Shown here piece after piece: positions 5,293 to 37,587 of a DNA stretch of 64,000 bases. The number at the start of each line of letters is the position of its first letter. Position 1 is the first letter of the stretch. Under the pieces are notes generated by a model that worked only from the letters and a program-made list of their open reading frames with translations, was not told where the DNA came from and made no database searches. Source of the stretch: Candidatus Zixiibacteriota bacterium. Its GTDB lineage: Bacteria; Zixibacteria; MSB-5A5; GN15; JACZUZ01. The position numbers and the translations under genes are program-made. The stretch spans positions 1-64,000 of the forward strand of contig JAJRPM010000011.1 in the NCBI GenBank assembly GCA_024280775.1, read 5' to 3'.

Positions 5293-7122
5293 CTAGGCCA
5301 AGCGCGCTAGAAGCGACAAAGTAGTGGCGCTTTCGATCTTGGCGTGGATACTGTCAATTTCCTCAAACAATGAATCAAGCGCAGAGTGGAAACGCTCCTT
5401 TTGCTCTTGATTGAATCTTTCACCTAGTTCTCGATAATGCTCAATCCCGACGTTAAGATTGCCCTTGAATTCAAGGAATCTTTTGGCAGTTTTTTCGGTA
5501 AACTCATCGCTGGCCACCTGAAACTCTTCACGGAAATAATCCACATATAGTGACAGCTCTTTGATGAAAACATGCGGCCTGTCAGCATTGGTAATCAGAC
5601 ACAGTCTGCCATAGATGTGATCAATCATCTCTTCGAGCGTGGCAATCTTGGAGAAATTCACAATGTTAGGCCCGCAACATACAGCCGGTGTCGCTTTGGG
5701 GTCAATGTCATACTTGAGAGTGGCCCCTCCGGTGAGGTCTAAGCAAAGGCAAGACTTGCGAAGCGCCTTCTCGCGAACATCCGCCATCTCGTCGCATGAA
5801 TCAGCGGCGTCGCCTAATTGCTTCATTTTCCTGCGCTGGAAATTTCGTGAGGCTGAGCAAATCGGCACATCGGTAAATTCAGTGTTAGAAACCAAAAACC
5901 CTTTCGGGCAGGGACTACCGGGACGGTTGCGCTCAATTCGCGCCAAACGATTCTCTTCACTTGCGGAGGTTTCCAAACTCCAAAACGGAGCTCCGAGCGG
6001 TGAATGATTGCTGAGAGAAACATCATCCTCGGTAGCTTCAATGAGCTTGGCAAGATGCGCCTCATCGACATTGGTAACTTCCGGCACCAGCAGAAACGGC
6101 GTAGCCCAACCAACGCAATCAATATCATAACGCTCAAACATCAATTCCTGCTCTTCGCTATTACCGATGCCTCCCTGCACTGTCACCAGCATCTCATGGG
6201 GAGAGCTTATCGGAGTTCGGTCGTTAGATTCTAGGGCTTTGTTGTAAAACACATGAAGCATTTCCACCATTTCACTTCGTTTCTGCGCAAACTCTTCCAT
6301 GATAGGCCCAAGCAAATGCCCGTCGGTCGGGAAGGCATGACCGCCACAATTAAGTCCCGATTCAATCCGGTACTCAGAAACCCACAGGCCTCGCTTGGCG
6401 AGGTACTTCCCTTGAATAACTGCGGAACGGTAATCGCTGACTTTCAGCGTAATCGTTTTGCGTAACTTGCCATTGCTATCGGGAAAGAAATCTTCAAACG
6501 TGGTCAAGTAGGCATATAGCCGGCGATTGAGCCCCGCCGAAAAGATAATCGAAGAACGCAATGTGCTATTTGCGAAACCACGTAGAGCCGCCATGGCATC
6601 GGCAAACTCCGGAGCCAGTTTGTTCTTATTCTTATCGTAGTTGTCGCTATCAAGCTTGGTCATGATATTGACATCAATACTGCCCGGAATCGCCTGCTTC
6701 CGCAACGAGTCCTGCATCGCCAGCTTTTCTTGTTCGGAGTCCTGAGCCAGCATAGCGGTATAGTCACTCCTGAGGGGTGAATCAGGCAGCATTTCGAAAT
6801 AACGCGTAATTTCGCTTCCTTTTTCAAAAGCAGATTTCTGTAATGCGGAAACTTGCTCAGCAACCAGAATATCCAACAGGTTCAAGTAAGCGGTAATTCG
6901 ACGAGCCCGCTTATCCTCGGAATCCTCAGGTATTTCGATGTACTCCAAATCATTCTTACGACAATAGACCCCGCGCATTTGCTCGGCCAATTCATCATCC
7001 ATAACCGAGACAACCGAAGAAATGCCATATCTGGCTACTTTCAGGGGAGTGTCGATACTGAATCCGGTTCCCATTACCGGTATGTGGAATTTATGCGGGG
7101 GTATGTAGTCGTTCTGGCTCAT
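5293..7122 (-). CDS. Large conserved protein, TIM-barrel oxidoreductase-like
   Basis: This 609-residue soluble protein has no signal peptide or membrane segment. The N-terminus (PVMGTGFSIDTPLKVARYG, residues 15-33) and the later ESGLNCGGHAF (254-264), VTVQGGIGN (313-321) and DCVGWATPFLLVPE resemble the phosphate-loop strands of nitronate-monooxygenase-like FMN TIM barrels. A Cys-rich part follows (PCPKG, VPICSASRNF, KSCLCLDLTGGA, PAVCCGPN), then a helical C-terminal ~120 residues. I have seen similar ~600-residue proteins in Bacteroidetes without a known function. The cysteines could bind a metal cluster, but spacing does not prove it. The call as an FMN-type enzyme is tentative. Confidence 0.7.
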   Translation of the reverse strand: MSQNDYIPPHKFHIPVMGTGFSIDTPLKVARYGISSVVSVMDDELAEQMRGVYCRKNDLEYIEIPEDSEDKRARRITAYLNLLDILVAEQVSALQKSAFEKGSEITRYFEMLPDSPLRSDYTAMLAQDSEQEKLAMQDSLRKQAIPGSIDVNIMTKLDSDNYDKNKNKLAPEFADAMAALRGFANSTLRSSIIFSAGLNRRLYAYLTTFEDFFPDSNGKLRKTITLKVSDYRSAVIQGKYLAKRGLWVSEYRIESGLNCGGHAFPTDGHLLGPIMEEFAQKRSEMVEMLHVFYNKALESNDRTPISSPHEMLVTVQGGIGNSEEQELMFERYDIDCVGWATPFLLVPEVTNVDEAHLAKLIEATEDDVSLSNHSPLGAPFWSLETSASEENRLARIERNRPGSPCPKGFLVSNTEFTDVPICSASRNFQRRKMKQLGDAADSCDEMADVREKALRKSCLCLDLTGGATLKYDIDPKATPAVCCGPNIVNFSKIATLEEMIDHIYGRLCLITNADRPHVFIKELSLYVDYFREEFQVASDEFTEKTAKRFLEFKGNLNVGIEHYRELGERFNQEQKERFHSALDSLFEEIDSIHAKIESATTLSLLARLA

Positions 7123-31720: not shown

Positions 31721-34084
31721 ATGAACACCAAGACACTGGAAGCGCTAGAGTTTCCGAAAATAATCAACGCCATAATCGGGCAGTCACTGACACCCTACGG
31801 CTCTGAACATACCCATCGGATAGAGCCACTTCATTCGCTTGACGCCATCCGCGCCCGTCTTGCTGAGGCTCAGCAGATGCGGGATATAGCGCTTTTTGGG
31901 GCGCCCTTCCCGCTTGAGCGACTCGATGATATTCGGGAAGCTTTGAAACGAGCTAGTGTTGAGGGTTCACGGATTGACGCTGATGAATTCCGCAGAATAC
32001 AACTTACCCTCGCCGTCACTGCAAAGCTGAAAGCCTTCAACAAAGGCGAACGCGATAATATGCCAGACCTCGCGGTACATCTAGAGGCGCTGGGGACCTT
32101 TACTGAACTCAAAGATGCGATTGAGCGGACATTCGACAAGTATGGCGAAATCCGCGATACAGCATCGCCTGCGTTACGCAAAATCCGTAACGATATTACT
32201 GACACCAGACAGCGAGTAATCAACAAACTCGAAAAATCTTTACGCTCGCGCACAAAATCCGACGGCTGGCAAGATGATGTAGTGACACAACGCAACAATC
32301 GCTATGTGATTCCTGCGCAGGCGAACTTGTATCGCGCCTCAGATGGAATTCTAGTAGACCACTCACAATCCGGCGCCACAGTCTATTTTGAACCGCCATT
32401 CGCGGTGGAACTAAACAACCAGCTCACTCTTGCGCTAAAAAATGAACGGCTTGAAATTGATCGTATTCTAATAGAGCTAACTACTCTGGTGCGTAATGTC
32501 AGTGGCGCTCTGCAGGAGACATTGAAGACCATCGGTGTATTGGATTCACTGCACGCACAGGCGCAGTTCGCTGTTAAGACAGACTCAATTGCCCCTCGCG
32601 TAATCGACGAAGCAACAATAGACTTAGTAAAAGCGCGCCATCCATTGTTGCTTTTCTATACTGACGATAAGGACAGCATTATCCCTCTCGATCTTACTCT
32701 CGATGATTCACATCAGGGAATCCTGATAACCGGACCTAACACCGGCGGAAAAACTGTTGCGCTGAAAACAATCGGCCTACTCACCGCAATGACTCAAAGC
32801 GGCTTGCTAATACCTGCCGAGGAACGTTCGACAGTTGGAATATTCAATGACATATTCGCCGATATTGGTGATGAGCAATCATTGGAGCTATCACTATCGA
32901 CTTTCAGTTCGCATATCACTCGTGTGATAGAGGCAATCAAGGCCGCCGATGAGCGTAGCTTGTTATTATTTGATGAAATCGGCGCTGGCACCGACCCGGC
33001 TGAAGGAGCGGCGCTCGCTGAGGCGATTATTCTTGAAGCTCTCGCCGCCGGAGCGCGAATGATTGCCACAACTCACTACTCGCAATTGAAAACTCTGCCA
33101 CTGGAACATGCGGAACTTGAGAATTGCTCGCTTGAATTCGACCGTGAGTCCCTGCAACCAACCTATAGACTACTTCTTGGTCTACCGGGTTCATCGTATG
33201 CAATAGAAATCGCCGCTAGACTGGGGATGCCCAAGCGAGTCATCGAACGAGCCTCGGCTGGTCTTGATAGCAATGAACGCTCTTTGGCTGAGCTTATCTC
33301 CACTATGGAGTCCCAGCTGAAACAAATGCGATCCGACAGCGCAACTTTGACCGAGAAACTCGAAGCCAGCGAAGCAATGGAGCGAAGCCTAAAAGAGCGC
33401 CTTGAGAATCATGAGAAAGAACTAAGCGACCAGCGAGAATCCGCGCTGGCGGAAACTGACGAATTGCTCAATGAAACCCGACAGGAAATTGAACGACTGG
33501 TCAAAGAGATTCGCGAAAGCGACGCCGAGAAAAGCAAAGTCAAAGAGGCGCATCGCTCACTTAAAGAACAAACCAGCAAACTCGAAAGCGCTCGAGCAAA
33601 CAAATCTAAGAAACCGGCGGGAACCAAACGTAGTGAGGTTCTTCAGCCGGGCGATCAAGTTTGGATAAACTCCTTACGCATATCCGGCGAAATCGCCGAA
33701 CTTGTAGGCAAAGACAGAGTGCGAGTGCGTGTGGGCAATATTCTCAATTTGGTAAAACGTGAGGATGTGCTTCGCGCCGATGTTGCAACACCGGGCGCAA
33801 AGCCGCGCCGTGACCCCATCGGACTGCGCGCTGAAACCGCCGCGGCGCCGGAGATTCATTTGCGCGGCCTGACAGTCGAAGAAGCCAAAGAGAAACTTGA
33901 CAAATTTCTCGATAGAGCGGTTCTTTCAGAGATGAGTCAGATCTATGTGATACATGGCAAGGGTTCAGGGACTTTGCGAAAATCATTGACCGCATTTCTC
34001 AAGTCCCATCCGGTAGTGAAGTCAGTACAAATCGGCGACTGGAATCAGGGCGGCGCCGGTGTAACTGTGGTGCAAATGAAATGA
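31721..34084 (+). CDS. mutS2: MutS2 endonuclease/ATPase
   Basis: The 787-residue protein has MutS core and ATPase domains but no mismatch-recognition domain. Walker A is GPNTGGKT (338-345), Walker B is LLLFDEIGAGTDP, and the switch is HITRVIEAI. A coiled coil spans ~510-620 (Glu/Lys/Arg-rich). The C-terminal Smr nuclease domain begins IHLRGLTVEEAKEKLD and has HGKGSGTLR. MutS2 acts against recombination and rescues collided ribosomes in some bacteria. The stop overlaps the dnaG start in ATGA, so translation is coupled. Confidence 0.97.
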   Translation: MNTKTLEALEFPKIINAIIGQSLTPYGSEHTHRIEPLHSLDAIRARLAEAQQMRDIALFGAPFPLERLDDIREALKRASVEGSRIDADEFRRIQLTLAVTAKLKAFNKGERDNMPDLAVHLEALGTFTELKDAIERTFDKYGEIRDTASPALRKIRNDITDTRQRVINKLEKSLRSRTKSDGWQDDVVTQRNNRYVIPAQANLYRASDGILVDHSQSGATVYFEPPFAVELNNQLTLALKNERLEIDRILIELTTLVRNVSGALQETLKTIGVLDSLHAQAQFAVKTDSIAPRVIDEATIDLVKARHPLLLFYTDDKDSIIPLDLTLDDSHQGILITGPNTGGKTVALKTIGLLTAMTQSGLLIPAEERSTVGIFNDIFADIGDEQSLELSLSTFSSHITRVIEAIKAADERSLLLFDEIGAGTDPAEGAALAEAIILEALAAGARMIATTHYSQLKTLPLEHAELENCSLEFDRESLQPTYRLLLGLPGSSYAIEIAARLGMPKRVIERASAGLDSNERSLAELISTMESQLKQMRSDSATLTEKLEASEAMERSLKERLENHEKELSDQRESALAETDELLNETRQEIERLVKEIRESDAEKSKVKEAHRSLKEQTSKLESARANKSKKPAGTKRSEVLQPGDQVWINSLRISGEIAELVGKDRVRVRVGNILNLVKREDVLRADVATPGAKPRRDPIGLRAETAAAPEIHLRGLTVEEAKEKLDKFLDRAVLSEMSQIYVIHGKGSGTLRKSLTAFLKSHPVVKSVQIGDWNQGGAGVTVVQMK

Positions 34085-35307
34085 GCGCCAAGAACAGCGG
34101 ATACATACCGGAAGATATAGTCGAGCAAGTTCTCACTGCGACTGACATTGTTCAATTGGTGGACGGTTATGTGAAGCTCAAGCGCCGGGGTGTGAATTTT
34201 ATCGGCCTCTGCCCTTTTCATGACGAAAAAACACCCTCGTTTACAGTGTCTCAGGAAAAGCAAATCTTCCACTGCTTCGGTTGCGGACAGGGCGGCAATG
34301 CGTATCGCTTCCTGATGGAACATGAGCGTATGTCATTCCCCGAAGCCGCACGATTTTTGGCCGACAAGGCTGGAATCACAATTCCAGAGGCCGCTGGCAG
34401 TGGTCGCAATCCCGATGAAATGGAAGCGCTCTACTATGCGCACAACCTAGCGCTGGAGATGTTTCAGGCAAACCTTAAACACGAGCGCTATCGCTCAGTG
34501 TATGTAGACTATTTGCAGAAATCTCGCGGACTTGCGCCTGAAACCATTGAGCATTTCAGCTTGGGTGTCGCCGGAACTAGCTTTGAGGATTTGGTGAAAC
34601 TTGCGCAGAAAAAAGGAATCGCTCCGACCACTCTGGCCAAAGCGGGATTAGCGTCATACTCCAGTAAACGGAACACACACTTCGACCGTTTCCATCACCG
34701 GTTGATGATTCCGATTCAGAATCTAAGCGACAAAGTGATTGCCTTTGGCGGCAGAGCGCTGAAAAAAGACGAGCAGGCGAAATACATCAACTCGCCGGAG
34801 ACGCCTCTATACTCCAAAGGTTCGACTCTCTACGGATTAAATCTAAATCGCGATGCAATTCGCAAAGAAAACTGCGCTATTGTTGTCGAGGGATATTTTG
34901 ATTTGATATCACTGTGGCAAGTGGGTATCAAAAATGTTGTCGCAAGTTCAGGAACAGCCTTTACTTTGCAACAAGGGCGTTTACTGGCGCGTTATGCCGA
35001 TACGGCATACTTGTTTTTCGATGCAGACTCGGCAGGTATTAAGGCGGCGATTCGTTCGGTGGATTCATTGTACAATGCAGGTGTCGAGGTAAAAGTTATC
35101 AGCGCTCCGACCGGCGAAGACCCGGACTCAATGGCGCGACGTGGCGCTGAGACAATCAAGGAGTTGATAAAGAGCGCCGAGAGATATTTGCAGTTTCGCT
35201 TTCGCGCATTCGACCGCGCCGGCTCGGGGTTAGTTGAACGCAATAAACTTATCGGCGAGCTGAAGGAAATCTCTGCGCGTATTGGTGATGACTCACTAAA
35301 ATCATGA
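34081..35307 (+). CDS. dnaG: DNA primase DnaG, N-terminal and catalytic part (TGA-interrupted)
   Basis: The first 408 residues hold the CHC2 zinc finger (Cys44, His47, Cys65, Cys68 in CPFHDEKTPSF..FHCFGCG), the RNA polymerase domain and the TOPRIM fold (Glu270 in VVEGYFDLI; Asp314 and Asp316 in FDADSAG). DnaG makes RNA primers for replication and binds DnaB with its C-terminal domain. Here an in-frame TGA at 35305-35307 ends the product in a helix (ISARIGDDSLKS). The same frame continues with the missing C-terminal part at once. With the stop read through the length is 591, normal for DnaG. Start ATG overlaps the mutS2 stop. Either a truncated functional primase, a mutation or an assembly error. 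Confidence 0.95.
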   Translation: MSAKNSGYIPEDIVEQVLTATDIVQLVDGYVKLKRRGVNFIGLCPFHDEKTPSFTVSQEKQIFHCFGCGQGGNAYRFLMEHERMSFPEAARFLADKAGITIPEAAGSGRNPDEMEALYYAHNLALEMFQANLKHERYRSVYVDYLQKSRGLAPETIEHFSLGVAGTSFEDLVKLAQKKGIAPTTLAKAGLASYSSKRNTHFDRFHHRLMIPIQNLSDKVIAFGGRALKKDEQAKYINSPETPLYSKGSTLYGLNLNRDAIRKENCAIVVEGYFDLISLWQVGIKNVVASSGTAFTLQQGRLLARYADTAYLFFDADSAGIKAAIRSVDSLYNAGVEVKVISAPTGEDPDSMARRGAETIKELIKSAERYLQFRFRAFDRAGSGLVERNKLIGELKEISARIGDDSLKS

Positions 35308-35856
35308 TTCGTCAATGAGGCCGCAGAGATTCTGCAAGTTGATAGGGCATTGTTTCAACCATCCAAGTCCGCCGAAGCGCCCAAAAGAGTTCCATCGGCG
35401 CCGAAAAGAACCGGCGACGATTGGGGCAAACGCAGTCAGGCCACTATTGAGGCTGAGTTTGTCTCACTGCTTCTAGCTCACCCCCACCTAATAGGCGCCG
35501 CCACCGAATCGATAGCCCCGAAGCGTCTTGCTAATATTAAATTACGCAATCTCTATCAGAGAATACTCACAGCAGTCGCTACCGGAGGCGTAACTGACAC
35601 CGCCTCGTTTATCGGCTCTCTCGATGATGACAGCCTTCTCACAACTGCGACATTCCTAACTACCAGCTCCGACCGTTGGAATTCAGAAACCGCTCCGGTA
35701 GCGCTCAAAGATTTTGTAGTCTCACTATCCACACAACCTGAACATCGCACTTCTATCAAAGAGCTATCCGAGCGCCTGAAAGCCGCCGAAGCGGCAGGTG
35801 ACAAGGAACAGACACAAGCTATTTTGCGCGAATTTGAAGAAGTTAGGAAACGATAG
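35308..35856 (+). pseudogene. dnaG: dnaG C-terminal part, separated by an in-frame TGA
   Basis: This is the direct in-frame continuation after the TGA: FVNEAAEILQVDRALF, a Lys/Pro linker, and the helical DnaB-binding region (EAEFVSLLLAHPHLI, IKLRNLYQRILTAV, LSERLKAAEAAGDKEQTQAI, ending FEEVRKR). The codons show no frameshift and no other stop up to TAG at 35854-35856. The best independent start is a TTG at 35350, without a clear ribosome-binding site; that would drop ~14 residues. It could be a second polypeptide, the product of read-through or dead sequence. Conservation of the frame argues for a recent event. Confidence 0.8.
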
Positions 35857-35865
35857 TCTGCGCCT

Positions 35866-37587
35866 ATGCTCTATTCCCTACACATTCAGAATCTAGCTGT
35901 TGTTGAAAACGCCAGTGTGACTTTCCAAAAAGGTTTGACTGTAATCACCGGCGAAAGCGGCGCCGGAAAATCTCTTCTGATTCGCGCCCTGGCTTTGGCG
36001 CTTGGAGCGCGGGCTGACAAAGATGATTGCGGTTCATTCAGCTCCACGACAGTGATTGAGACGGAATTTGCGCTTGCGCCTCACTTGCTCTCGATTCTGA
36101 GCAAACTTGATGTTACTATTGACTCCGCTGATAGTGACGATACACGAGTGACTCTCAGACGTGAGCTAACTGCAAACGGCAGGTCACGTTGTTTCGTCAA
36201 TGACCAGCTGATTCGCCTGAGTGATCTCGCGGATATTTCGACGGCCTTGTGTGAGATTTCCGGTCAATCATCTAGTATCGCCCTTAGAGATTCCATGCGG
36301 CAACTGGCTCTCCTTGATGACTATGCAGGGTTATCCAAGGATGTTGCTACTCTAGGCGCTTTGTATGACAACTGGATGGCAGTCCGCGCTGACTTGCGCA
36401 AGCTGGAAAAGAATCGCGAGGCTCTCAAAGTTGAACGCGAATTGTTGCAGTTTCAGCAAAGCGAACTCGAAAGCGCTGAACTGTCCCTTGAGGAAGAAGA
36501 TAATCTAAGCGCCGAGAAGAAACGTCTTGATGACTTTGAGCGTTTGAGCCAAACCTGTGATTTGATTCTCTCTACTCTGGAGAACGACGGTTCCCCGCTG
36601 GAAAGCTTGCAAGCGCTACGCGGCGCCTTTGCTGAGGTCAATGCAATTGATGAGCGCTTTTCCGAACAGCACGAACTTTTTGATTCATCGTTGATTCAAC
36701 TCGAAGAAGTCAGACGTAGTGTTGCGACATTCAGTAGCGCTTTGCAATTCGATGCAGAGCGTCTTGAGGAACTCAACCAAAGATTATCAGATATTTACCA
36801 ACTAAAGAACAAGTACGGTGGAACAGTCGCAAATGCTATCGAGGAACTTGGACGAATACGTCAACGACTAAACGACCTGCCCGACCCTGCGCTGGCAATT
36901 ACGGGGTTACAATCCAATGAATCCAAAGCTTGTAAGGCTTACACTAAACTGGCGCTGAAAATCCGTGAGACTCGCAAGAAAGCCGCTGCGTCTTTAGCAA
37001 AAGTAACACGCAAAGAGTTTTCACATCTTGCGCTGGAGAAAGCGCAAATTGAGTTTGTACTTGAAGAAGAGCATGGCTCCCCGGAACTCGAAATAATAGA
37101 TGGCGACAAGCAACTAACGCTCAAAGCCCAACGTCACGGACTCGAAAACGGATCTTTCTTCTTCTCGGCAAACCCCGGCGAGTCGCCCAGACCACTAGCG
37201 CGAGTTGCATCCGGCGGTGAGCTTTCTCGCGTGCTGTTGGCCCTGAAGATTGCCACCAGAAAAAGCGCGGCGAAAAAGAGTCTCTCCCCGAACGCACCGT
37301 CCGCACCGTCCGCACTGGTCGCACCTGTTGCTGTATTCGATGAAATCGACACCGGTGTCAGTGGCGCCACAGCAACTGCTATGGGCAAAAAACTCAAAGA
37401 GCTATCGACGCAAAATCAAACGATTGTGGTTACCCATTTGCGGCAGGTTGTCGAGCAGGCGGACAATCATCTGCTGGTAGAAAAGACTCCGACCAAAGGC
37501 AAAAACCACGTCTCAATCCGCCCATTGGACAAATCCGAATCCGGGCGCGAGCAAATGAAAATGGTCGATTTGGAGACGGTTGGATAG
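35866..37587 (+). CDS. recN: DNA repair protein RecN
   Basis: This 573-residue SMC-like ATPase helps repair double-strand breaks. Walker A is GESGAGKS (29-36) in a LTVITGESGAGKSLLIRAL segment. A long coiled coil spans ~150-400. The ABC signature is ASGGELSRVLLALK and Walker B is VAVFDEIDTGVSG. Before Walker B there is an inserted Pro/Ala/Ser stretch (SPNAPSAPSALVAP) that I do not see in standard RecN. It starts nine bases after the dnaG end, so it belongs to the same run. Induction by DNA damage is usual but no LexA site is visible here. Confidence 0.96.
   Translation: MLYSLHIQNLAVVENASVTFQKGLTVITGESGAGKSLLIRALALALGARADKDDCGSFSSTTVIETEFALAPHLLSILSKLDVTIDSADSDDTRVTLRRELTANGRSRCFVNDQLIRLSDLADISTALCEISGQSSSIALRDSMRQLALLDDYAGLSKDVATLGALYDNWMAVRADLRKLEKNREALKVERELLQFQQSELESAELSLEEEDNLSAEKKRLDDFERLSQTCDLILSTLENDGSPLESLQALRGAFAEVNAIDERFSEQHELFDSSLIQLEEVRRSVATFSSALQFDAERLEELNQRLSDIYQLKNKYGGTVANAIEELGRIRQRLNDLPDPALAITGLQSNESKACKAYTKLALKIRETRKKAAASLAKVTRKEFSHLALEKAQIEFVLEEEHGSPELEIIDGDKQLTLKAQRHGLENGSFFFSANPGESPRPLARVASGGELSRVLLALKIATRKSAAKKSLSPNAPSAPSALVAPVAVFDEIDTGVSGATATAMGKKLKELSTQNQTIVVTHLRQVVEQADNHLLVEKTPTKGKNHVSIRPLDKSESGREQMKMVDLETVG

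Follow-up and report, generated by a model that had tools for sequence, protein, structure and literature searches.

An in-frame TGA in the primase gene dnaG of an uncultured Zixibacteria genome, probably an assembly consensus error or minor variant

Results

The interrupted dnaG and its neighbours

The window, a stretch of 64,000 nucleotides, lies in contig C14 of a Candidatus Zixiibacteriota genome of 3.17 Mb in 17 contigs that is 97.5% complete. It carries the primase gene dnaG between two intact genes, whose names were given by reading the sequence, without family search:

31721..34084, plus strand: mutS2-like gene, intact, upstream; ATGA overlap with the dnaG start
34081..35304, plus strand: first 408 codons of dnaG, with zinc-binding domain, catalytic core and Toprim domain (Pfam, NCBIfam; PDB relatives 2au3, 5guj and 1dd9)
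35305..35307, plus strand: in-frame TGA, codon 409; a Leu column in nearly all Zixibacteria, within predicted helix 404-418
35308..35856, plus strand: remainder of dnaG, with the end of the catalytic-domain helix, a disordered linker (428-446), a putative helical DnaB-binding domain (453-590) and a normal stop (predicted structure, purifying selection)
35866..37587, plus strand: recN-like gene, intact, downstream

Translation of the frame 34081-35856 confirmed the mid-gene TGA reported by an earlier sequence-only reading: one interior stop occurs, at codon 409 of 592, and no other was found in this frame. Read across it, the product runs MSAKNSG...DDSLKS*FVNEAAEIL...EEVRKR*, with a normal stop at its end. 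Upstream of the TGA, the CHC2 zinc finger (PF01807, E 3e-38), the DNAG_N catalytic core (PF08275, E 2e-36) and the Toprim domain (PF13155, E 8e-24) are present, and the 408 amino acids match the NCBIfam dnaG model TIGR01391 with an E value of 2e-125, a match that extends to model position 412 of 414 once the TGA is read through. A working full-length DnaG calls for one uninterrupted frame, and the frame is broken at this codon.

Downstream of the TGA

The C-terminal DnaG features that had been called clear beyond the TGA were not recovered by family searches, which gave no DnaG C-terminal family match in the window's own sequence; they show up in the predicted fold and, as a sub-threshold match to PF08278 (E 0.007), in the sister dnaG described below. 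The read-through protein is predicted at a mean pLDDT of 82. In this model the TGA residue belongs to helix 404-418, with which the catalytic domain ends, and not to the inter-domain linker; a disordered linker (428-446) and a helical domain (453-590) come next. The predicted fold of the segment downstream of the TGA resembles 2r6c_G and 1z8s, both the DnaB-binding domain of DnaG, with E values of 0.01-0.4. Folded alone, the domain 453-590 (pLDDT 84) is most like the DnaB N-terminal domain and the DnaG helicase-binding domain (HBD), a fold common to both. The HBD of DnaG mediates the interaction with DnaB (PMC6163395).

Past the TGA, the differences from the sister gene number 47, 42 and 117 at codon positions 1, 2 and 3, respectively, and 10 changes are private to the studied genome versus 14 in the sister, showing no acceleration. 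Judged from these counts, selection on the protein acted normally on the segment behind the TGA up to the very recent past. Given this purifying selection without faster change, the stop is very recent, translated through, or absent from the genome. Were it a genuine mutation, the 182 codons without a further stop would limit neutral divergence after it to less than about 0.16 per site.

Relatives and the ancestral codon

The dnaG gene is intact in about 40 relatives and has an interior stop in none of them; 3 relatives were at first flagged as carrying a stop, and on inspection none had one in the middle of dnaG. In the alignment, the TGA column holds Leu in nearly all Zixibacteria, with one Ile and one Val; bacteria further removed have Tyr, Leu, Phe, His, Asp or Glu there. 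Neither Cys nor Trp occurs in this column among the aligned homologues. The nearest DnaG, that of the congener Candidatus Zixiibacteriota JAJRPJ010000002.1 (hereafter the sister), has the same kind of neighbours (mutS2-like and recN-like), domain order and length, and aligns over its full length, through the TGA as the one stop, at 73% identity. It differs in carrying CTC (Leu) where the studied gene has TGA.

From this alignment, the ancestral residue at codon 409 was almost surely Leu. TTA is the only Leu codon one base away from TGA, and the neighbouring genes use it less than any other Leu codon (15 of 234). The recent nonsense mutation proposed by the sequence-only reading thus remains apt in kind, as a single recent base change, but the CGA or GGA codon it had named as parent does not, since an ancestral Leu points to TTA. 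Moreover, neither a second DnaG nor a stand-alone HBD was found elsewhere in the genome, where dnaG is single copy.

Genetic code, tRNAs and release factors

That TGA is a stop in this organism, read earlier from ATGA overlaps, is borne out: it ends 63 of 238 long open frames, TGA, TAG and TAA all terminate long genes, and RF2 is intact. A second release-factor match, RF1-like and presumably RF1, is intact as well. None of the 43 tRNA matches in this 97.5% complete assembly is a non-Sec tRNA with a stop-reading anticodon, and the sole UCA anticodon is that of tRNA-Sec. An altered code or a suppressor strain was therefore rejected, given the intact RF2 and the restriction of UCA to tRNA-Sec.

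Isolated stops in other genes

We scanned 1.36 Mb, about 43% of the genome, for stops with coding-like sequence on both flanks, gene identity being read by eye. Isolated stops interrupt three further genes:

C1:250144-251460 (L249), minus strand: secY, single copy; in-frame TAA at a Gln position, at locus position 728
C8:212-2665 (L191), minus strand: lon; in-frame TAG at a Gln position, at locus position 2164
C11:43069-45921 (L235), minus strand: subtilase with sorting tail, broken by one TAA at locus position 5408

SecY and DnaG are indispensable proteins. The secY of the studied genome is 92% identical to the intact secY of its congener, and a stop was found in no relative's secY. Two further lon paralogues of the genome are intact, and lon and the subtilase, taken alone, could be genuine pseudogenes. 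The sister has isolated stops of its own, in a hemW-like gene (L275:383), a pyrE-like gene (L270:2955), an unnamed third gene (L276:13310) and a lon paralogue, lon-3 (L280:8679); in a gene-by-gene comparison, no stop was common to both congeners. Every stop for which the expected residue is known lies one base away from that residue, and the gene-to-gene comparison gave no convincing frameshift, with one weak candidate in each direction. Lesions that are nonsense changes without a convincing frameshift fit short-read substitution errors and not gene decay.

In a control pair from another Zixibacteria genus (G012 and G024), compared over 400 kb, a conserved frame is interrupted by a single TAG (G012, L290:10100) and a further gene by two in-frame TAA codons (G012, L289:5384-6254). 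The comparison did not show a raised stop load special to the studied genus: with occasional stops in the control pair too, the level of isolated stops is not peculiar to this genus.

The four isolated stops in 1.36 Mb correspond to a substitution rate of roughly 8e-5 per base, within a wide range of 2e-5 to 2e-4. The sister stretches had been picked partly for holding dnaG and lon, which biases the gene-by-gene count for the studied genome, and this count was kept out of the rate. The contig ends of C1, C2, C4, C5, C8, C9, C10, C12, C14, C16 and C17 share exact overlaps of 132-141 identical bases; overlaps of up to 141 bases indicate a short-read de Bruijn assembly with k=141, and a contig name of the congener ('k141_95024') indicates k=141 there too.

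Discussion

We consider it probable, at roughly 0.6, that the dnaG TGA is a consensus error or a minor variant in a short-read metagenome assembly and does not represent the working gene. A one-base substitution would have entered the consensus, either as an error or as a low-frequency variant that the contig picked up, and the TGA base would be absent from most reads. Living cells would then make an intact DnaG of about 591 residues from a gene with a Leu codon at 409. In favour of this reading are the single substitution-type lesion, the selected frame intact on both sides of it and the fact that dnaG is a single-copy essential gene. Other isolated substitution-type stops were found in secY, lon and the subtilase, and such stops in other essential genes shift the balance towards an assembly error or minor variant. 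Against it, the Leu parent that it requires, TTA, is the rarest Leu codon nearby, short-read assemblies of good depth usually have fewer errors than 1e-4, and the stops in lon and the subtilase, by themselves, could mark pseudogenes. The pattern is like that of isolated stops in draft and metagenome-assembled genomes, with one substitution-type stop, an intact rest of the frame and other conserved genes hit. Our literature searches on dnaG nonsense mutation or read-through, and on stop load in metagenome assemblies, gave nothing.

Second in rank, and unlikely, is a genuine and very recent nonsense mutation, lethal or nearly so, that would be segregating in the population or would leave a truncated catalytic part that barely sustains the cell. 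The one-base change, the intact downstream frame with no sign of relaxed selection and the low upper bound on neutral divergence set by its 182 open codons all speak for it. However, dnaG is single copy, the HBD mediates the interaction with DnaB (PMC6163395), and secY is interrupted likewise; that a lineage could live with both lesions is less probable still.

Read-through of the stop, in which near-cognate decoding would give a low level of full-length DnaG and would likewise serve secY, lon and other genes, seems improbable to us. It would account for stops in essential genes whose frames beyond stay under selection. However, the stops of the interrupted genes are of all three kinds and lack a common context, each of TGA, TAG and TAA ends long genes, no stop is shared between the two congeners, and the tRNA set without a stop-reading non-Sec member, like the intact RF2 and RF1-like genes, argues against it. 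In E. coli, moreover, TGAT terminates translation strongly. The read-through offered by the sequence-only reading thus gained no positive support, neither a suppressor tRNA nor a SECIS being found. A wider version, that this Zixibacteria genus makes DnaG, SecY and the sister's PyrE-like protein through scattered stops of all three kinds and without a suppressor tRNA, is very improbable.

We give slightly less credit still to a split primase, in which a catalytic polypeptide of 408 residues and a separately started helicase-binding polypeptide would act in trans. DnaG domains are modular and the putative HBD starts about 45 residues past the stop, but the TGA, within helix 404-418 of the catalytic domain and outside the linker, is a poor split point. 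Moreover, an ATG overlapping the TGA leads into a frame only four codons long, and the first in-frame start, a TTG at 35350, has AGGG two bases upstream, too close for a good restart. No relative has a split dnaG, and the two-polypeptide primase suggested earlier is left without positive support.

The insertion of selenocysteine at the dnaG TGA we dismiss almost entirely, even though the genome encodes SelB, tRNA-Sec and a SelD whose gene has a Sec-type TGA:

C15:182497-183417 (L315): selD, a selenoprotein gene; TGA at locus position 1531, SECIS-like hairpin with a GGU loop
C4:12958: selB
C10:808: tRNA-Sec

In bacterial SECIS elements, a loop G followed by G or U lies 16-37 nt downstream (PMC13188914). 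The selD gene served as a positive control, since 20 nt past its Sec-type TGA lies a 7-bp hairpin whose loop is GGU. Like selD, dnaG has an in-frame TGA and sits in a genome that encodes SelB and tRNA-Sec, and a hairpin 20 nt past the dnaG TGA fits a loose bacterial SECIS model. However, 26% of random window codons fit that model too, the dnaG loop is GAU and so departs from the strict pattern of G then G or U that selD shows, and the fold energy at the site is ordinary (z 0.63 and -0.38). An Rfam search returned chance matches only. The homologues of dnaG, for their part, have Leu at the site, and across the aligned set the column holds L, Y, D, F, H, E, I and V, with no Cys or Sec.

The likeliest reading is thus not a new kind of primase, and the dnaG finding by itself is most likely ordinary. 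When a stop turns up in an essential gene of an uncultured organism, the rest of the assembly should be considered alongside it; in the present genome secY and lon are hit alike, and a biological puzzle becomes one of consensus quality. Should reads bear out the dnaG and secY stops, they would argue strongly for a bacterium with general stop read-through.
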